From Cyclobacteriaceae bacterium (GTDB taxonomy: Bacteria; Bacteroidota; Bacteroidia; Cytophagales; Cyclobacteriaceae): DNA of 43,557 bases. Shown here one piece after another: positions 7,988 to 43,557 of this stretch. The DNA lies in contig JALSJF010000244.1 of assembly GCA_026989505.1 (NCBI GenBank), positions 1-43,557 on the forward strand. The letters run 5' to 3'. The notes under the pieces were generated by a model. That model was given only the letters and a program-made list of their open reading frames with translations, ran no database searches and was not told the DNA's origin. The translations under genes were made by a program, and so were the position numbers. Each line of letters opens with the position of its first letter. Positions within the stretch are counted from its first letter, which is position 1.

Positions 7988-8926
7988 TTATTGTTTACGC
8001 ACGAAATCGACATTCCGCTTTAACCCGGCAAACTTGCTGCGTTTTACGGCCGAGCCGGCAAAAACTTTGGCAAAAGTTTCGGCCGTCATTTCTTCCCAAT
8101 CGGCCGGCCGCATGTTTTGCAGGTGTTCGTTAGGGGCAAAGGCCGGTTCATTATGTGGGCGTGAAAAACGGTTCCAGGGGCAAACATCCTGGCAGATATC
8201 GCAACCGAAAATCCAATTTGCCAAAGGTTCACCGGCCGGTATCGGTTCCTGGCTTTTTAATTCGATGGTATAATACGCTATACATTTGCTGCCATCTACC
8301 ACCCCCGGCTGCACAATGGCTGCCGTGGGGCAGGCATCGAGACAGCGCGTACAGGTACCGCAATGATCGGTTACCGGCTGGTCATAGGCCAGCTCAAGGT
8401 CAATAATCAGTTCAGCCAAGAAATAGAAGCTACCTTTTTTTGCCGTCAGCAGCAGGCCGTTCTTGCCCAGCCAGCCCACCCCGGCCCGCTGGGCCCATTG
8501 GCGCTCCATCACCGGGGCTGAATCAACAAACACCCGGCCGCCTATTTCGCCTATTTCTTCCCGGGCCTGGTCAAGAAACAGCCGCAGTTTCTCTTTGATC
8601 ACCTGGTGATAATCCTTGCCATAGGCATACTTGGCAAGTTTATAGCCATGCTGCGGGGCCAGGTCCTGTTGGGGGTAATAATTATACAATAAGCTTACCA
8701 CCGATTTTGCCCCCGGCACCAGCTTTTGCGGGTCGAGGCGCTTGTCGAAATGGTTGGCCATATAGCCCATCTGGCCATGATAATTATGCTTTAACCATTG
8801 CTCCAGGCGGGGGGCCTCATCTTCCAGAAATTCGGCTTTGGCAATACCGCAGGCGGCAAACCCCAGCCGGGCGGCTATTGCTTTGATTATGGCCGTATGG
8901 CGCTCGCAGGAATTCAAAAGCCGCAA
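7988..8926 (-). CDS. queG: Epoxyqueuosine reductase
   Basis: This cytoplasmic Fe-S, cobalamin-dependent enzyme converts epoxyqueuosine to queuosine in tRNA, the last step of queuosine synthesis. Visible hallmarks are the VDSAPVMERQWAQRAG block, the GVGWLGKNGLLL segment and two ferredoxin-like clusters (CGTCTRCLDACP and CDICQDVCPWNRF). No ATG lies near the 5' end of the conserved reading frame. The candidates are TTG codons at 8968, 8926 and 8917. I chose 8926 because it falls just after the ruvB stop (8931) and keeps a short tail before the conserved AAIRLGF-like opening. With this start the protein is 312 residues, normal for the family. It is probably translated from the ruvB message. Confidence 0.9.
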   Translation of the reverse strand: MRLLNSCERHTAIIKAIAARLGFAACGIAKAEFLEDEAPRLEQWLKHNYHGQMGYMANHFDKRLDPQKLVPGAKSVVSLLYNYYPQQDLAPQHGYKLAKYAYGKDYHQVIKEKLRLFLDQAREEIGEIGGRVFVDSAPVMERQWAQRAGVGWLGKNGLLLTAKKGSFYFLAELIIDLELAYDQPVTDHCGTCTRCLDACPTAAIVQPGVVDGSKCIAYYTIELKSQEPIPAGEPLANWIFGCDICQDVCPWNRFSRPHNEPAFAPNEHLQNMRPADWEEMTAETFAKVFAGSAVKRSKFAGLKRNVDFVRKQ

Positions 8927-8930
8927 TAAT

Positions 8931-9959
8931 TTACTTGAATAGATCGAGGTTTTGTGAGGGCGGCACAATGTTCAGGTGCTTATAGGCCAGCTCCGTGGCT
9001 TCGCGCCCGCGGGAGGTGCGCTTAAGGTACCCCTCCTGGATCAGGAATGGCTCATACACCTCCTCTATCGTTTCGGCTTCTTCGCCACAGGCCGTGGCAA
9101 TGGTGGTCAGCCCCACGGGCCCCCCTTTGAATTTTTCGATAATGGTACTGAGGATGCGGTTGTCCATTTCATCAAGCCCGTGCTGGTCAACATCCAGGGC
9201 TTTCAGGGCCATATCGGCAATAGCCCGGGTAATCCGGCCATCGCCTTTCACCTCGGCAAAGTCGCGGGTCCTGCGCAGCAGGTTATTGGCAATCCGGGGC
9301 GTACCGCGGCTGCGCCTGGCAATTTCATTGGCGGCATCCTCATCTATACCGGTATTGAGGATTTTAGCCGAACGGTGAATGATGGTGGCAATCAGCTCGG
9401 CATCATAATATTCAAGCCGCGCACTGATGCCAAACCGCGCCCGGAGCGGGGAGGTAAGCAGGCCGGCACGGGTAGTGGCCCCTACCAGGGTAAAGGGGGC
9501 CAGGCTCAGTTGCACACTGCGGGCGTTGGGGCCCGAATCCAGCATAATATCAATGCGGAAGTCCTCCATGGCCGAGTACAGGTATTCTTCTACTACCGGG
9601 TTTAGGCGGTGGATTTCATCAATAAACAGCACATCGTTTTCCTCCAGGTTGGTGAGCAGGCCGGCCAGGTCCCCGGGCTTGTCAAGTACCGGTCCCGAAG
9701 AAATTTTAATAGAGGAGTTAAGCTCATTGGCAATAATATACGACAACGTGGTTTTGCCCAAACCGGGCGGGCCGTGCAGCAGCACATGATCCAGCGATTC
9801 GCCCCGCTGTTTGGCCGCCTGCACAAAAACCTTAATGTTCTCCACCACCTTAAACTGACCGGTGAAGTCGGCAAAGTTGACCGGCCGCAACGCCCGTTCT
9901 ATCTCCTTCTCTTCGGGGGACAGCCCTTCCGGTTCGCCCCTAAGGTAATCTTCTCGCAT
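8931..9959 (-). CDS. ruvB: Holliday junction branch migration helicase RuvB
   Basis: This 342-residue AAA+ ATPase forms the hexameric motor that, with RuvA, drives Holliday junction branch migration during recombination repair. Walker A (GPPGLGKTT), Walker B (DEIHRL), the sensor GATTRAG and the arginine-finger region (SPLRARFG) are all present, and a winged-helix C-terminal domain (about 260-335) contains TSRGREAT. The frame is open to a TTG at 9971, but the ATG at 9959 gives the usual MREDYL-type start. It is followed immediately by queG. ruvA and ruvC are not in this window. Confidence 0.97.
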
Positions 9960-36385: not shown

Positions 36386-36431
36386 AATATTTTACAGAAA
36401 AATGATATGCATCATTTTTCTGTAAAATATT
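36386..36431. promoter_or_regulatory. 46-bp perfect inverted repeat with FNR-like core (nap promoter)
   Basis: Arms of 21 bases (36386-36406 and 36411-36431) are perfectly complementary around the 4-base spacer ATGC. The core ATGAT-ATGC-ATCAT (36402-36415) differs from the FNR box TTGAT-N4-ATCAA only at the outermost base of each half. It is followed 21 bases after the core by CTTTTCTTGC (36437-36446), a possible -7 region. Together they place the dyad at about -41.5 from a start near 36450, the class II activator position. A related core stands in front of the porin gene. Confidence 0.6.
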
Positions 36432-36448
36432 TTAAGCTTTTCTTGCAA

Positions 36449-36464
36449 TGTGACATAAATCACA
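36449..36464. promoter_or_regulatory. CRP/HcpR-like site TGTGA-CATAAA-TCACA upstream of napD
   Basis: This is a perfect 5-bp dyad with a 6-base spacer, identical to the CRP consensus and close to the TTGTGA-N6-TCACAA type described for HcpR regulators of nitrosative stress. It lies 30 bases before the napD ATG and at or just after the inferred start of transcription, where binding would more naturally repress. The exact regulator cannot be known from this window, which contains no CRP/FNR gene. Confidence 0.65.
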
Positions 36465-36493
36465 TTTTAAAACAGGAGCGCAAATTACCGGAT

Positions 36494-36763
36494 ATGCCGA
36501 TCAAAAGCTATGTAGTATTTCCTCAAAAAGGAAAGAAAGGGACATTAACAAACATCTTGCGAAGCCTTGAAAACTGCGAGGTAGTAGTTTCTTCAAATAA
36601 GGATGTATTGGTTTTGGTTACCGACACAAAATCCGGCCAGCAAGAAGAAAAACTTAAAACGGTATTGGCAAACATAGAAGAGATTGAGCATTTAAACCTG
36701 GTTTCCGGGTTTAGCGAGAGTTGTCTGCAAGAAAACGAAAAATCACCCCAAAACAATGAATAG
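36494..36763 (+). CDS. napD: NapD-type chaperone for periplasmic nitrate reductase
   Basis: This 89-residue cytoplasmic protein resembles NapD, the chaperone that binds the Tat signal of NapA and holds it back until the cofactor is inserted. Its opening SYVVFPQKGKKGTLTNIL, the central ENCEVVVSSNKDVLVLV and the EEIEHLNLVSG segment match the small ferredoxin-like NapD fold, although the similarity is loose. It overlaps napA by 8 bases. The frame stays open upstream through the dyad region, but ATG 36494 is the only start that yields the conserved beginning. An AGGAG sits at 36474-36478, 15 bases upstream, longer than the usual spacing. Confidence 0.8.
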   Translation: MPIKSYVVFPQKGKKGTLTNILRSLENCEVVVSSNKDVLVLVTDTKSGQQEEKLKTVLANIEEIEHLNLVSGFSESCLQENEKSPQNNE

Positions 36764-39074
36764 ACGAGTATTTCTTAAAAAAGCTGCTGCCGCCTCGGCC
36801 ATGGCCGCTGCCGCCACAATGCTACCGGGTATCCTGTTCGCTGCCGATCAAACCAAGGATAACCTTCCCGGGGGTATCAAATGGACGAAAGCCCCTTGCC
36901 GGTTCTGCGGGGTAGGGTGTGGCGTGCTGATAGGAACAAAAGAAGGCAAAACAGTGGCGGTTAAGGGCGACCCCAACAGCCCTGTTAACCAAGGTCTCCT
37001 TTGTGTAAAGGGGTACCACCAGATTATGTGTACTTCGGCTGCCGACAGGCTTACGAAACCTTTAATAAAGAAAAACGGCCAATACGTAGAGGCCACAATG
37101 GACGAAGCCCTTGACCTGGTGGCCGCCAAGATGACCGAAACAATTGAAAAATACGGCAAAGATGCTGTGGCCATGTACACTTCGGGGCAATCGACTATTC
37201 CCGAGGGCTATGTTGCGGCTAAGTTTATGAAAGGGGCTATCGGCACAAATAATCTGGACTGTAATGCCAGGTTATGCATGGCAAGTGCCGTAGCTGGTTT
37301 TTTGACCACTTTTGGGGCAGATGAGCCCATGGGCTGCTATGAAGATATCGACTATGCCGATGTATTTGTATTATGGGGCAACAATATGGCCGAAATGCAC
37401 CCCGTATTATTTTCCCGGCTTCTTGATAACCGCCTAAAACGTAAAAATGTAAAGATAATAGACCTGGCCACCCGCACAACCCGCACCAGTAAGGCTGCGG
37501 ATAAATCTATTTTATTTAAACCTCAAACCGATTTAGCCATTGCCAATGCCATTTGCTATGAAATAATAAACAATGGCTGGGTAAACCACAGTTTTGTAGA
37601 ACAGCATATTGTTTTCAAGAAGGGGAAAACCACTATTGGTTATGGTTTGGAAGACAAATTTAAATTTAAAGATGAAGCCGAAGCTATTGATTTTAACCAA
37701 TACAAAACCTTTTTAGCAGACTATCGGCCGGATAAAGTAGAAGCCCTTACGGGGGTGTCGGCCAAAGACATAAAATATCTTGCCGCGTTATACGGAGACC
37801 CCGGATTAAAAGTGGTTTCCTATTGGTGCATGGGCATGAACCAACACACGCGTGGCACCTGGATGAACAACCTGGTGTATAATATACACTTATTGACAGG
37901 CAAGATTTCCCAGCCGGGCAATGGCCCGTTTTCACTGACCGGTCAGCCCAGTGCCTGTGGCACAGCCCGGGAGGTAGGCACGTTTACCCATAAGCTGCCC
38001 AAGGGGGTGGTTACCAACGAAAAACACCGCAGGTTGGCCGCCAAAATCTGGCAAGTACCGTATGAACGGATCCCGGCAAAACCAACCTATCATGCTACGG
38101 AAATGTTTAGGGCAATTGACAGGGGCGACATTAAATTTCTTTGGACCCAGGTAACCAACCCGTTGGTATCGTTACCCAAAACCAGCCGCTACCGCCCCGG
38201 GATGAAAAAAAACGACTGCTTTGTTGTGGTCTCTGATGTGTTCCCAACGCCTACCAGTGATGTTGCCGATGTAATTCTGCCGGCTGCCTGGCATGTGGAA
38301 AAAAGCGGCATGTACGGAAACTCTGAACGCAGGACCCAATACTGGGATAAAATGGTGGAGCCGCCAGGAGAAGCAACCCCCGATGCCTGGATGACGATTG
38401 AAGTAGCCAGGCGAATGGGCTTTGGCGATTTGTTTCCGTACAGTAAGGAAAACCACCATGAAGAAATATATAATGAGTACCGCCAGTTTCATGTTGGCAA
38501 AAAACACAATATGGCCCCGGTTGAGGTACTTAAGAAGCAGAGCGGGGCTATCTGGCCTTACATTGAGGAAACAGGGAAATCTACCCAATGGCGTTTTAAC
38601 GCAAAATATGATCCGGCCTGCGACCAGGAAAAAGACTTTGACTTTTATGGCCGGCCTGACGGCAAAGCTGTAATATGGCAGCGCCCTTATGAACCTGCTC
38701 CGGAGGTGCCGGATAACGAATACCCTTTTTGGTTAAATACCGGCCGGGTTATCGAACACTGGCATACGGGTTCAATGACCCGCAGGATTCCGGTACTGCA
38801 CCGGGCCGTACCTAATGCCTATGTAGAGCTTCACCCTGACGATGCCAAACGGCTGGGTATTCAAAACAAACAACTTGTCAAAGTAGTATCACGAAGGGGC
38901 TCTACCGTTTTGCCGGCATCAATAAACGAACGGGGCCTGCCTGCCAAAGGCCAGGTTTTTGTGCCGTTTTTCGATGAAAGCATGCTGATTAATGATGTTA
39001 CCCTGGATGCTTTCTGCCCGATATCAAAAGAGCCTGATTACAAAAAATGTGCCGTTAGAATTGAACGGGTATAA
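36756..39074 (+). CDS. napA: Periplasmic nitrate reductase catalytic subunit
   Basis: This 772-residue molybdenum bis-MGD enzyme reduces nitrate to nitrite in the periplasm. It has a Tat signal (NRRVFLKK, then Ala-rich, cleaved around LFA-AD), the 4Fe-4S ligands C48, C51, C55 and C83 (CRFCGVGCGV...LLCVKG), and NARLCMASAVAG in which C174 is the expected Mo ligand. Shared NapA stretches include the FGADEPMGCYEDID and LWGNNMAEMHPV segments and HTRGTWMNN. The length is that of a NapA monomer. napB follows with a one-base overlap (TAATG), so the two are translationally coupled. Confidence 0.97.
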   Translation: MNRRVFLKKAAAASAMAAAATMLPGILFAADQTKDNLPGGIKWTKAPCRFCGVGCGVLIGTKEGKTVAVKGDPNSPVNQGLLCVKGYHQIMCTSAADRLTKPLIKKNGQYVEATMDEALDLVAAKMTETIEKYGKDAVAMYTSGQSTIPEGYVAAKFMKGAIGTNNLDCNARLCMASAVAGFLTTFGADEPMGCYEDIDYADVFVLWGNNMAEMHPVLFSRLLDNRLKRKNVKIIDLATRTTRTSKAADKSILFKPQTDLAIANAICYEIINNGWVNHSFVEQHIVFKKGKTTIGYGLEDKFKFKDEAEAIDFNQYKTFLADYRPDKVEALTGVSAKDIKYLAALYGDPGLKVVSYWCMGMNQHTRGTWMNNLVYNIHLLTGKISQPGNGPFSLTGQPSACGTAREVGTFTHKLPKGVVTNEKHRRLAAKIWQVPYERIPAKPTYHATEMFRAIDRGDIKFLWTQVTNPLVSLPKTSRYRPGMKKNDCFVVVSDVFPTPTSDVADVILPAAWHVEKSGMYGNSERRTQYWDKMVEPPGEATPDAWMTIEVARRMGFGDLFPYSKENHHEEIYNEYRQFHVGKKHNMAPVEVLKKQSGAIWPYIEETGKSTQWRFNAKYDPACDQEKDFDFYGRPDGKAVIWQRPYEPAPEVPDNEYPFWLNTGRVIEHWHTGSMTRRIPVLHRAVPNAYVELHPDDAKRLGIQNKQLVKVVSRRGSTVLPASINERGLPAKGQVFVPFFDESMLINDVTLDAFCPISKEPDYKKCAVRIERV

Positions 39075-39754
39075 TGATGAAAACGAGTTATGTCATCATC
39101 GGTTTTTGGCTGGTACTTTTTATTGCGGCCAGCATAATTGTAAGTACCAGCTTGTTTGAGGAGCAGCTTGTGGCCCGGGCTGAAACCCTGGCCTCACCGG
39201 GGGCCAACACCTTGCCGGTTGAAGAAGGGGTTTTTAAACTTGCCGGCCGGGCTGATGAATTAAGGGCCTTGTTTTACCGTGGGGTTGGCTCAAAAAAGGG
39301 CCTTGGCCCGTATTACAGCAGAAGGGCTTTCCCTGGCGCCCCCCCTGTTATTCCCCACCCTGCAGACGAACATCAGGATATTGGCGGTAAGGCTTGCTTA
39401 CAATGTCACCAGAATGGGGGCTATGTTGATCAGTATCAGGCTTTTGCCCCTGTTTCCCCTCATCCGGAGTTACTGAATTGCAAGCAGTGCCATGTGCCTG
39501 TTGTAACAACAGGCAGTTTTATCGCCAGTAGCTGGCGCAAGCCAGCGCCCCCGGAAACCGGGCAGCAAGAACTACCGGGCAGCCCCCCGGTTATACCCCA
39601 TGCCCTGGAAATGCGTAACAACTGCCTTTCCTGCCATGGCACCCCGGCAGCCCCGCGGGAAATCAGGGTGTCGCACCCAGACCGTGTTAACTGTCGCCAA
39701 TGCCATGCCCTAAATGATAATACAATGAACGCCCCTGAAATATGGACAAGATAA
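39074..39754 (+). CDS. napB: NapB-type nitrate reductase cytochrome with duplicated diheme module
   Basis: This 226-residue protein begins with one hydrophobic segment (about 5-28), a signal anchor or signal peptide. Four c-type heme sites are seen: CLQCH 108-112, CKQCH 136-140, CLSCH 184-188 and CRQCH 207-211. The block 'PPVIPH ... CxxCH ... HP ... CxxCH' occurs twice (PPVIPH at 90-95 and 171-176). Ordinary NapB has one such diheme unit and hands electrons to NapA. Here the unit seems to be tandemly duplicated, giving a tetraheme protein. Naming follows NapB because of the PPVIPH motif and its position next to napA. Confidence 0.85.
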   Translation: MMKTSYVIIGFWLVLFIAASIIVSTSLFEEQLVARAETLASPGANTLPVEEGVFKLAGRADELRALFYRGVGSKKGLGPYYSRRAFPGAPPVIPHPADEHQDIGGKACLQCHQNGGYVDQYQAFAPVSPHPELLNCKQCHVPVVTTGSFIASSWRKPAPPETGQQELPGSPPVIPHALEMRNNCLSCHGTPAAPREIRVSHPDRVNCRQCHALNDNTMNAPEIWTR

Positions 39755-40467
39755 AAAACAGTTTACACCACCGCGCCTTCACCTTCTCAGGTAGCAGGAA
39801 AAGGGGCTACCCGGCACTACCAATACGTATTGCCAGGGGGCCTAACCATTTTTGTGGGTGGTTTTTTTTATTGTTCCTGGCTTCCTGTTCCACACCCCTG
39901 CATAAGGATGACGGCCCGATGGCAAAAATAAGGCAACAGGGTGCCAATACCGTTGAATACGAAAGGATTAGCTCAGACCCATTCACCCTTACCCTTGAAA
40001 AGGTAGCGGTAACCAATGCAGAAAACGATACGCTCTTTTTTATTCCGGACAGAACCGGCCAATTAGTTGCCTTCCCCTGTAACAAGTGCCATACGAAAGC
40101 GCTAAGCCGTATGGTTACACGTGATCCCCTGGCCAAAAAGGCCCATTGGGATATCCGCCTGAACCATGTTACCGGAGAGGAACTGGCATGTACAACCTGT
40201 CATAGCCGGGATAATGTTGAGTACCTGACGTTAATTAATAATAAACAGATAGATTATAATAAAAGCCAACAAGTTTGCGCCCAATGCCACGCTACACAAA
40301 ACAAAGATTGGCTGGGAGGTGCCCACGGGAAAACCCTTGGTGGGTGGGCCCCGCCCCGGGTATCCGCTACTTGTGTTAATTGCCATAACCCACACACCCC
40401 GGCACTTGAAGCACGCTGGCCAGCACGGTTAAACACTGTAAAAATCCAAGAACTTGACCCTAAGTAG
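39742..40467 (+). CDS. Tetraheme c-type cytochrome lipoprotein
   Basis: This 241-residue protein has four CXXCH heme sites: CNKCH 113-117, CTTCH 150-154, CAQCH 179-183 and CVNCH 211-215. A lipobox (LASC, C49) ends a hydrophobic segment (about 38-48), so it is probably a lipoprotein facing the periplasm. The first 35 residues are unusually basic and poorly conserved-looking; a shorter translation start inside them is possible but no other ATG fits. It overlaps napB by 13 bases. Tetraheme cytochromes occur in some nap clusters (NapM in Desulfovibrio), so it likely carries electrons between the quinol oxidase and NapB/NapA. Confidence 0.83.
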   Translation: MDKIKNSLHHRAFTFSGSRKRGYPALPIRIARGPNHFCGWFFLLFLASCSTPLHKDDGPMAKIRQQGANTVEYERISSDPFTLTLEKVAVTNAENDTLFFIPDRTGQLVAFPCNKCHTKALSRMVTRDPLAKKAHWDIRLNHVTGEELACTTCHSRDNVEYLTLINNKQIDYNKSQQVCAQCHATQNKDWLGGAHGKTLGGWAPPRVSATCVNCHNPHTPALEARWPARLNTVKIQELDPK

Positions 40468-40472
40468 CCGCT

Positions 40473-41507
40473 ATGTTTTTTAACAGAAAAAAGAAACAAA
40501 ACAAGAAAAAAATATCGCCTGCCCCGCTTGCCGGCAGCGCTAAAAGCAATAGTTGCCAGCAGCCGGGTGACGGTTTTGATCAGGTAATTAATAAGCCTTT
40601 GAACAGAAGGTCTGCAGTAAAGGGGTTAACAGCCGGGCTATTAACAGGGGCGGGGCTGCTAAACTCAGCCTGCAGCTTAACCTCCGGTGAAGCCGGCAAA
40701 GGGTTAGCCTCCCTGAAATGGGAAGAGTACTTTAAAGGAAACTACCAATTGATGACCCCTGAAGAAAAAGAGGCTACGGTAAAGCGCCTGGAGAAGATGT
40801 ACGAGCTGGCAAATGGTGGAAAAATAAAAATATCGGCCAAAGGGGCTGTTAAAGATGTACTTTACGGCTATGCTTTCAATATTTCAAAATGCAGGGGGTA
40901 TATGGACTGCATAAATGCTTGCATTGAAGAAAACAACCAGGACCGTAACTCACAAATGCAATACATACGTATCCATGAGTTTAAGAAAGGGCAAATGAAT
41001 TTTGAGCTGGCCGATGATAATTTTTATCACCAGGTGCCGGCAGCCGGACATTTTTATCTCGGTACGCAGTGCTTTCATTGTGAGAACCCTCCTTGTGTTA
41101 ATGTGTGCCCGGTGAAGGCCACCTGGAAAGAGAAAGATGGCATAGTGGTTATAGACTATGACTGGTGCATCGGTTGCAGATATTGCCAGGCAGCCTGCCC
41201 TTATGATGGCAGGCGCTTTAATTGGTCGGCCCCGCATGTGCCGGAAAATGAACTTACTAAAGACCAGCATTATTTAGGCAACAGGTTGCGGAAAAAGGGG
41301 GTGATGGAAAAGTGCACATTTTGCATACAGCGGTCAAGAAACGGGGCAAACCCAGCCTGTGTAGAGGCCTGCCCTACAGGGGCCAGAATATTTGGCAACC
41401 TGCTCGACCCTAACAGCACCATACGCTGGGTGCTGGAGAACAAGAAAGTTTTCAGGTTAAAAGAAGACTTAGGCACAGAGCCTAAATTTTGGTATTTCAT
41501 GGATTAG
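40473..41507 (+). CDS. Four-cluster ferredoxin-type iron-sulfur subunit (NrfC/PsrB/ActB-like)
   Basis: This 344-residue protein carries the Cys groups of a four-cluster DMSO-reductase-type electron-transfer subunit: C140/146/150, C200/203/208/212, C232/235/238/242 and C281/284/296/300. The first group should read CxxCxxCxxxC but has Tyr at 143 (CRGYMDC), so one cluster lacks a Cys ligand and may be [3Fe-4S]. An internal twin-Arg motif (NRRSAVKGL, 44-52) is followed by a hydrophobic stretch and a possible lipobox at C67, indicating Tat export as a lipoprotein. The first 40 residues are Lys-rich. It starts 6 bases after the cytochrome gene. Confidence 0.9.
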   Translation: MFFNRKKKQNKKKISPAPLAGSAKSNSCQQPGDGFDQVINKPLNRRSAVKGLTAGLLTGAGLLNSACSLTSGEAGKGLASLKWEEYFKGNYQLMTPEEKEATVKRLEKMYELANGGKIKISAKGAVKDVLYGYAFNISKCRGYMDCINACIEENNQDRNSQMQYIRIHEFKKGQMNFELADDNFYHQVPAAGHFYLGTQCFHCENPPCVNVCPVKATWKEKDGIVVIDYDWCIGCRYCQAACPYDGRRFNWSAPHVPENELTKDQHYLGNRLRKKGVMEKCTFCIQRSRNGANPACVEACPTGARIFGNLLDPNSTIRWVLENKKVFRLKEDLGTEPKFWYFMD

Positions 41508-41529
41508 CCATAATGAAACACAGAAAAAA

Positions 41530-42744
41530 ATGAAGGTAGTATTTAGTATGATTGCCGATGGTTTTAAAGAAGCCACCAAAGGCACCATCGCTTACCATGT
41601 ATGGATGGCTGTCCTGACCCTGTTAATGTTGCTTGGCGCGTATGCCTACTACCAGCAAATCACCCATGGCCTGGTGGTAACCGGCATGACCGACCGGGTA
41701 AGCTGGGGGCTGTATATTTCTAATTTCACTTTTTTGGTAGGCGTAGCGGCAGCAGCCGTGATGCTGGTCTTGCCTACCTATATATTAAAGGATATTGACT
41801 TCTCCCAGGCGGTACTCATTGGCGAAGGCCTGGCCGTATCAGCCCTGGTTATGTGCCTGGCTTTTGTAACCGTTGACATGGGCGGGCCTGCCCGCCTGTG
41901 GCATATTATTCCCGGAATTGGCAGTTTAAACTGGCCAAACTCAATGCTCGCCTGGGATGTTATTGTTCTTAATGGCTATTTGTTTATAAACCTGACGATT
42001 CCTTTTTACCTCTTATACCATCATTACCAGGGCAAAAAGCCAAATAAGTCTGTTTACTTGCCGGGGGTACTAATTTCGGTGTTTTGGGCTGTTGGCATTC
42101 ATCTGGTAACCGCCTTTTTATATGCCGGCTTGCCGGCACGCCCTTTCTGGAATAGCGCTTTGCTGGGGCCCAGGTTTCTTGCCTCAGCCTTTGCTGCCGG
42201 GCCGGCACTAATCATTCTGGTGCTGGCTGTTATCCGCAGGTTTATGGGGTATAACATTGCCAATAAAACGATTGATAAAATAGCCATGGTAGTAACAGTG
42301 GCAGCCCAGATAAACCTGATTATGTTAGGCTCAGAACTTTTTAAAGAGTTTTATAGCCTCACCCACCATAGTAATAGCGCGCTTTATATGTTCTTCGGGA
42401 TTAACGGGAAAAATGCCCTTGTGCCCTGGATTTGGACCTCCATTAGCTTAAACTTTCTGGCTACCGTTACCCTGACCTTTAACCGGTTTAGAAGAAACCA
42501 CACTATTTTATATGGGGCATGTGTAATCTTATTTATTGCTATTTGGATTGACAAAGGGATGGGGTTGATTATCCCGGGTTTTATTCCGGGCCCCTGGGGC
42601 AATATTGTAGAGTATTTTCCTACCTGGGTTGAGATAGGGGTTACCCTGGGTATATGGGCCTTAGGGGCATTTGTTTTTTCCATCCTGGTTAAAATTGCCG
42701 TGCCCATAGCGTTGGGAAAATTACGCTATCAAAGCCATCGGTAA
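41530..42744 (+). CDS. NrfD/PsrC-type polytopic quinol-oxidising membrane subunit
   Basis: This 404-residue integral membrane protein has about 10 transmembrane helices and is the NrfD-family partner of the preceding ferredoxin subunit. The stretch TVDMGGPARLWHIIPG with NWPNSMLAWDVIVLNGYLF is typical of the NrfD/ActC/DsrP/QrcD group, which exchange electrons with menaquinol near the periplasmic side. It replaces NapC or NapGH as the quinol entry point in this operon. It begins 22 bases after the iron-sulfur gene, and the locus ends here, before the porin promoter. Confidence 0.9.
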   Translation: MKVVFSMIADGFKEATKGTIAYHVWMAVLTLLMLLGAYAYYQQITHGLVVTGMTDRVSWGLYISNFTFLVGVAAAAVMLVLPTYILKDIDFSQAVLIGEGLAVSALVMCLAFVTVDMGGPARLWHIIPGIGSLNWPNSMLAWDVIVLNGYLFINLTIPFYLLYHHYQGKKPNKSVYLPGVLISVFWAVGIHLVTAFLYAGLPARPFWNSALLGPRFLASAFAAGPALIILVLAVIRRFMGYNIANKTIDKIAMVVTVAAQINLIMLGSELFKEFYSLTHHSNSALYMFFGINGKNALVPWIWTSISLNFLATVTLTFNRFRRNHTILYGACVILFIAIWIDKGMGLIIPGFIPGPWGNIVEYFPTWVEIGVTLGIWALGAFVFSILVKIAVPIALGKLRYQSHR

Positions 42745-42863
42745 CGCCCTTCTTGCCGCGGCCGGTAACCGGGCTTGGTGTTGTCACAAAACGGGTAGTA
42801 TATTTGTTTCCTGCCGGCAAAGGTTGCCGCTTTCTTCATTACCAATAAAATTTAAGAATTTAA

Positions 42864-42877
42864 ATGACGGATATCAT
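42864..42877. promoter_or_regulatory. FNR-like dyad ATGAC-GGAT-ATCAT upstream of the porin gene
   Basis: This is the counterpart of the nap dyad core: ATGAC-N4-ATCAT, one base off a perfect palindrome, with A/T symmetry extending two bases further on each side. It is followed after the same distance (26 bases from the start of ATCAT) by CTTTTTTTGC (42899-42908), versus CTTTTCTTGC in front of napD. A GGATAT/ATATCC inverted repeat ending in the T-run could alternatively serve as a terminator for the nap operon. Confidence 0.5.
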
Positions 42878-42911
42878 TTTTTATCGGACATGCATATCCT
42901 TTTTTTGCTTC

Positions 42912-42927
42912 TGTAATCTTAATCACA
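42912..42927. promoter_or_regulatory. CRP/HcpR-like site TGTAA-TCTTAA-TCACA upstream of the porin gene
   Basis: This matches the CRP-type dyad at 9 of 10 half-site bases and shares the octamer AATCACAT with the napD site. It begins 49 bases (centre to centre) after the FNR-like dyad, versus 48 in the nap promoter, and 23 bases before the ATG at 42951. Confidence 0.5.
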
Positions 42928-42950: not shown

Positions 42951-43557
42951 ATGAAGAACCTACTCCTGACAATTATTTTACTGGCAAGTGTACTAAATGC
43001 AACAGCGCAATTCAACTTAGGGGCAGAAATACGCCCCCGTGCTGAATTTCGCAATGGTTTTAAATCTCCTTCTGAAAAAAATGTCCCCCCGGCATTTTTT
43101 ATCGAGCAGCGTTCCCGTTTATATTTTAATTATGCCACAGAAAAGCTGATTCTGAAAATAACTTTTCAGGATGTAAGGATTTGGGGCAGTGTTGATCAAA
43201 TATATAAAGCTGACCCTAACATGCAGAATGTTTATGAAGCCTGGGGACAATTTAATTTTAATGCCAATTTTGGGGTCCGGGCCGGCAGGATGGAGCTCGA
43301 CTATGATGGGGCCCGGTTTTTAGGAAACCTGGATTGGGCCGCCCAGGCAAGAAGCCATGACGCCCTCCTGTTCCTGTGGCGCAACAACAACGGGCTGAAG
43401 CTCGATGTGGGGCTGGCCTATAACCAAAACTGGCGTCCTGAACCCTCATGGCTAAGCCAGAATTTCTATGACCACTCGGTTACCAATAATTATAAAACCA
43501 TGCAATTTGCCCGGTTTGAAAAAAAATCAGCTACCGGGAACCTGGTGGCCTTAGTCC
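42951..43557 (+). CDS. Alginate-export-family-like outer-membrane porin (5' part, runs off window)
   Basis: The first 202 codons are open to the window end with no stop. A signal peptide (about 1-20, ending NATAQ) precedes beta strands with a porin-like alternation, and the opening FNLGAEIRPRAEFRNGF resembles the alginate_exp porin family common in Bacteroidota. The shared promoter pattern with the nap operon suggests a role in passage of nitrate, nitrite or a linked substrate through the outer membrane, but this is inference. The substrate cannot be read from the sequence. Confidence 0.75.
   Translation, partial: MKNLLLTIILLASVLNATAQFNLGAEIRPRAEFRNGFKSPSEKNVPPAFFIEQRSRLYFNYATEKLILKITFQDVRIWGSVDQIYKADPNMQNVYEAWGQFNFNANFGVRAGRMELDYDGARFLGNLDWAAQARSHDALLFLWRNNNGLKLDVGLAYNQNWRPEPSWLSQNFYDHSVTNNYKTMQFARFEKKSATGNLVALV

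Follow-up and report, generated by a model that had tools for sequence, protein, structure and literature searches.

A promoter array shared by the nap operon and a neighbouring porin gene in a Cyclobacteriaceae bacterium combines an FNR-type site with a CRP-type operator that looks sulfide-linked

The DNA considered here is the entire contig JALSJF010000244.1 of a Cyclobacteriaceae bacterium (assembly GCA_026989505.1; positions 1 to 43,557, 43,557 nt, hereafter the window), and pattern searches were extended to the draft genome of 3.51 Mb from which it comes (G000). The window carries a nap operon for periplasmic nitrate reductase followed by a porin gene, and both are preceded by the same succession of an FNR-like dyad, a -7 element and a CRP-like dyad (Table 1). 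The porin regularly accompanies nap (30 of the nap loci examined contain a homologue, which in many cases immediately precedes napD), and this explains why the two would share their control.

Table 1. Genes and promoter features of the nap and porin region, in window positions.
Feature	Position	Strand	Remarks
Perfect 21-bp inverted repeat, 4-bp loop	36386..36431 (arms 36386-36406/36411-36431)		core is the nap FNR-like dyad
FNR-like dyad, nap: ATGAT-N4-ATCAT	36402..36415	+	centre 37 bp before G of -7 element (class II position)
-7 element, nap: TANNTTTGY-like, TTTTCTTGC	36438..36446	+	predicted start ~36450
CRP-like dyad, nap: TGTGAC-N4-ATCACA	36449..36464	+	over predicted start; predicted repressor operator
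napD	36494..36763	+	weak NapD match, under Pfam cut-off
napA, periplasmic nitrate reductase catalytic subunit	36756..39074	+	above NCBIfam cut-offs
Remaining nap operon: NapB-like cytochrome, multihaem cytochrome, 4Fe-4S protein, NrfD-like membrane protein	39074..42744	+	
FNR-like dyad, porin: ATGAC-N4-ATCAT	42864..42877	+	
-7 element, porin: TTTTTTTGC	42900..42908	+	predicted start ~42912
CRP-like dyad, porin: TGTAAT-N4-ATCACA	42912..42927	+	over predicted start; predicted repressor operator
Porin gene, Alginate_exp family	42951..43557	+	truncated at contig end

An earlier note on the window had described this common design, and all six elements are found where it placed them (its boxes spanning 36437-36446 and 42899-42908), with 26 bases from the start of ATCAT to the C of the box at both promoters and with the dyad centres 48 (nap) and 49 (porin) bases apart. 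Exact matches to either dyad pattern occur in the window only at the two arrays. When the whole of G000 was scanned for the two dyads with 20-50 bases between them, only nap and porin matched, the reversed-pattern control gave 0 matches, and no third gene with the full array was found, so that the design is common to these two places and does not recur before many unrelated genes. With a gap of 33-36 bases, 391 genomes of the order yielded nap and porin plus just three scattered others. One-mismatch CRP-like matches, taken singly, are equally common in shuffles of the window, and it is thus the spacing and the conservation of the array, rather than any single site, that beat chance. A promoter elsewhere in G000, at C234:8918 (L188, ~8918-8970), has a -7 box and a start-site CRP-like dyad without an FNR dyad: there TACTTTTGC, followed directly by TGTAATTCAGATCACA, precedes a gene for a TlpA/thioredoxin-like lipoprotein.

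The array is real and conserved. It precedes napD in two relatives, G056 (same genus, WFNR01000016.1) and G014 (JALSJD010000119.1), and also the divergently transcribed porin gene of G056, which gives five promoters for comparison with the two of G000 included. In all five the G of TTGC falls exactly 31 bases after the FNR dyad (counted from RTCA), an identity of offset that arose in 0 of 200,000 shuffles of the spacers, although the sequences are related and this is hence no true probability. The letters T24, T29, T30, G31 and C32 are invariant, accounting for five of the seven specified letters of TANNTTTGY, the Bacteroidota -7 consensus as quoted in PMC12632263; the box of the earlier note is therefore the -7 element, as it had supposed. 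G014 has one additional dyad, TGTAATTTTTATCACA, a short way upstream of its nap FNR dyad (L062, ~942-957).

The position of the FNR-like dyad near -41.5, also proposed in the earlier note, is supported by spacing well beyond these relatives. Among 58 nap loci, mostly from Flavobacteriia, nearly every base at +28 to +30 after the dyad is a T (100% at +29), and the last letter of TTTG falls at +31 or +30. When ATGAY-N4-RTCAT followed by TANNTTTG was sought in 99 Cyclobacteriaceae genomes, the distance peaked at +31, with 48 among the 150 matches listed against approximately 3 per offset. The resulting distance of 37 bp from the dyad centre to the G of TTTG is class II geometry, and since the spacing is general across genomes, class II activation of the nap and porin promoters by an FNR-type protein is a well supported prediction. 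A candidate for this protein in G000 is the FNR-like L001, whose recognition helix carries E-x-x-S-R as in FNR and in which three of the four FNR cluster cysteines have counterparts (C20, C23 and C122, but not C29). The L001 gene's own promoter has a class II site, with TAACTTTA ending at +31. The FNR candidates differ between genomes, being of the L001 type in G000 and of the L145 type in G056. Class II FNR promoters of E. coli, with their site near -41.5, are alike in having an FNR-type dyad at one fixed distance that overlaps the upstream promoter element, and in their weak core promoter. They differ in the dyad itself (TTGAT-N4-ATCAA, vs. ATGAY-N4-RTCAT here), in the core promoter, which is here of the Bacteroidota -33/-7 type, and in the fixed distance, which here is the 37 bp from dyad centre to the G of TTTG.

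The nap FNR-like dyad of G000 also forms the core of a perfect inverted repeat (Table 1) that is absent from the napD promoters of G056 and G014. Its right arm is like the relatives' sequence and its left arm is not, as after a template-switch copy. A terminator is not favoured as an explanation of this palindrome, given its AT-rich stem and its place between divergent genes.

The second dyad leads to a different set of genes. G000 as a whole contains few exact TGTRA-N6-TCACA dyads, and one of them, on contig C259, leads into an operon that encodes a sulfide:quinone-reductase (SQR)-like flavoprotein together with L003, a CRP-like protein. Similar dyads, in some cases with a mismatch at the final base, precede an SQR/trx pair or the L003 gene in G000, G056, G014 and G135. 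They also stand in front of trx, rhodanese and SulP genes, where TTTG follows at a distance of exactly 29 bases. Over 60 genomes, TTTG lies at +29 from TGTGAY-N4-RTCAC in 27 matches and at +30 in another 13, compared with 2.9 per offset, which corresponds to 37-38 bp from the centre to the G, the same distance as for the FNR sites. The genes behind those sites that could be read encode thioredoxins, metallo-beta-lactamase-rhodanese fusions, rhodaneses, YgaP-like membrane proteins, TauE- and YeeE-like transporters and SulP (these last three named from sequence by eye), along with a few others; persulfide-dioxygenase-like genes are among them. Homologues of L003 or of its paralogue L005 occur in 56 of the 60 genomes and adjoin such sites in several, and G000, G056 and G014 each encode an orthologous L003-type regulator. 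The recognition helix of L003 has the equivalents of R180, E181 and R185 (R-E-x-x-S-R), residues that correlate with G3 and A6 of the site (PMC1274295). All of L001, L003 and L005 score far below the NCBIfam CRP cut-off. In the L003-like proteins C77 and C83 are conserved, and mostly C84 too (L253-L282, L285-L287); these cysteines of the cNMP-binding domain make the SQR-linked CRP-like regulators, of which most Cyclobacteriaceae genomes encode one, candidate persulfide sensors.

The nap and porin dyads fit the operator TGTRAY-N4-RTCAC of this proposed sulfide-linked CRP-type regulon of Cyclobacteriaceae, the porin dyads with a degenerate TGTAA half (TGTAAT in G000, TGTAAC in G056). Since they share their motif with the sulfide-gene sites, which often adjoin L003- or L005-like regulators, the second dyad of nap and porin looks like an operator of that group. 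The name "CRP-like" given to it in the earlier note is apt for the sequence and for nothing beyond it, and the alternative name "HcpR-like" is not supported, as the Bacteroides-type HcpR2 motif differs and TGTGAY-N4-RTCAC goes with sulfide and persulfide genes. The known sulfide and persulfide regulators CstR, SqrR/BigR, FisR and CsoR control SQR, persulfide dioxygenase, rhodanese and TauE-type genes and sense via cysteines (PMC8148161). The regulator proposed here would resemble them in controlling genes such as SQR and rhodanese, whereas none of them belongs to the CRP/FNR family and, unlike them, it would also have sites on nitrate-reductase and porin promoters. No CRP-family regulator of SQR or sulfide genes in Bacteroidota was found in the literature searched, which is no proof of absence.

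At nap and porin the operator is placed differently than at the sulfide genes. It does not lie at -41.5, with TTTG at +29 or +30; it follows the -7 box on its 3' side and covers the predicted start of both promoters, as the earlier note had it, and we therefore propose that it acts there with the opposite sign. TTTG at +29 after the second dyad is absent from all four sites inspected (nap in three genomes and the porin of the window), and napD of G056 begins 14 nt after the dyad; for these two reasons the second dyad was rejected as a class II activator site of a further downstream promoter. Repression seems the simplest reading, given a dyad that sits on the predicted start rather than at -41.5 and the nearness of napD in G056. 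A family-wide design is a different matter, since start-site placement of the second motif is only weakly enriched (26 of 101 matches at gaps of 0-4, p ~0.02, from a hand-copied list), and so the case for the arrangement is its conservation among close relatives at nap and porin.

Several other accounts of the second dyad were considered, all of them less likely than a sulfide-linked L003-type repressor. The operator might be read by an L005-type paralogue or by some other protein of the CRP family that answers to a different signal, which would leave the layout of activator and start-site operator as it is: L005 has the same R-E-x-x-S-R helix as L003, and genes of the L005 type are neighbours of class II TGTGA sites in both G059 and G004. 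In G000, however, it is around L003 that the SQR operon and the sulfur genes with sites are grouped, and no dyad precedes the L005 gene, and we regard this assignment as unlikely. It is rather more doubtful that one FNR-type protein binds both dyads, activating from the upper and limiting itself by repression from the lower. TGTGAC-N4-ATCACA does contain the FNR core TGAY-N4-RTCA, and the lower nap dyads of both G000 and G056 conform to this core, but in the porin dyads one half no longer has it, whereas the outer TGT/ACA letters are retained, and it is those letters that fit a separate sulfide-gene operator.

Control of nap by a nitric-oxide sensor of the HcpR type would make sense, and HcpR regulons are alike in belonging to the CRP/FNR family and in counting nitrogen-oxide genes among their targets. 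The Desulfovibrio HcpR consensus, wTGTGAnnnnnnTCACAw (PMC1274295), resembles the lower dyad, and in some Flavobacteriia nap promoters TGTAAC-N4-GTTACA overlaps the -7 box and fits HcpR2. We nevertheless rejected HcpR as the reader here and think it very unlikely, since Bacteroides-type HcpR2 sites are GTAAC-N4-GTTAC (Rodionov et al., 2005, PMC1274295), a form tied to a substituted E181 (PMC1274295), and neither TGTGAC-N4-ATCACA nor TGTAAT-N4-ATCACA fits it; the TGTGAY motif belongs here with sulfide and persulfide genes. The Flavobacteriia dyads are found in Lutibacter-like loci on the -7 TTTG upstream of napD (L118, L121, L124, L130 and L136, also L113 and L111) and represent a second layer of another kind at this point of the promoter. 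The least credible reading is that the CRP-like dyad is incidental and that the FNR dyad and the -7 box alone matter. Most other nap promoters do have an FNR dyad and no second one, and the abundance of one-mismatch matches in shuffles points the same way; the second dyad is nevertheless kept at nap in three genomes and at porin in two, with a spacing constant to within one base, and exact matches are few in G000.

We thus prefer, at somewhat better than even confidence, a two-input switch at nap and porin in which activation by an FNR-type protein is vetoed by a sulfide-linked CRP-type factor of the L003 type. An FNR-type regulator would bind ATGAY-N4-RTCAT centred 37 bp before the G of TANNTTTGY (about -41.5) and would activate transcription from the weak -7 box, presumably at low oxygen. 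The L003-type protein, SQR-linked and cysteine-containing, would bind TGTRAY-N4-RTCACA; from -41.5 before the sulfide and persulfide detoxification genes it would activate them, and from the same operator covering about +1 to +15 at nap and porin it would block initiation, so that nitrate reductase and porin would be switched off during sulfide stress. This suggests that sulfide may shut down nitrate respiration. More tentatively, and at somewhat less than even confidence, a CRP-family persulfide sensor widespread in Cyclobacteriaceae may be at work, activating sulfide detoxification from -41.5 and vetoing nitrate respiration from the same operator placed over the start. If this is true, sulfide would be tied directly, at the level of transcription, to the nitrogen cycle.
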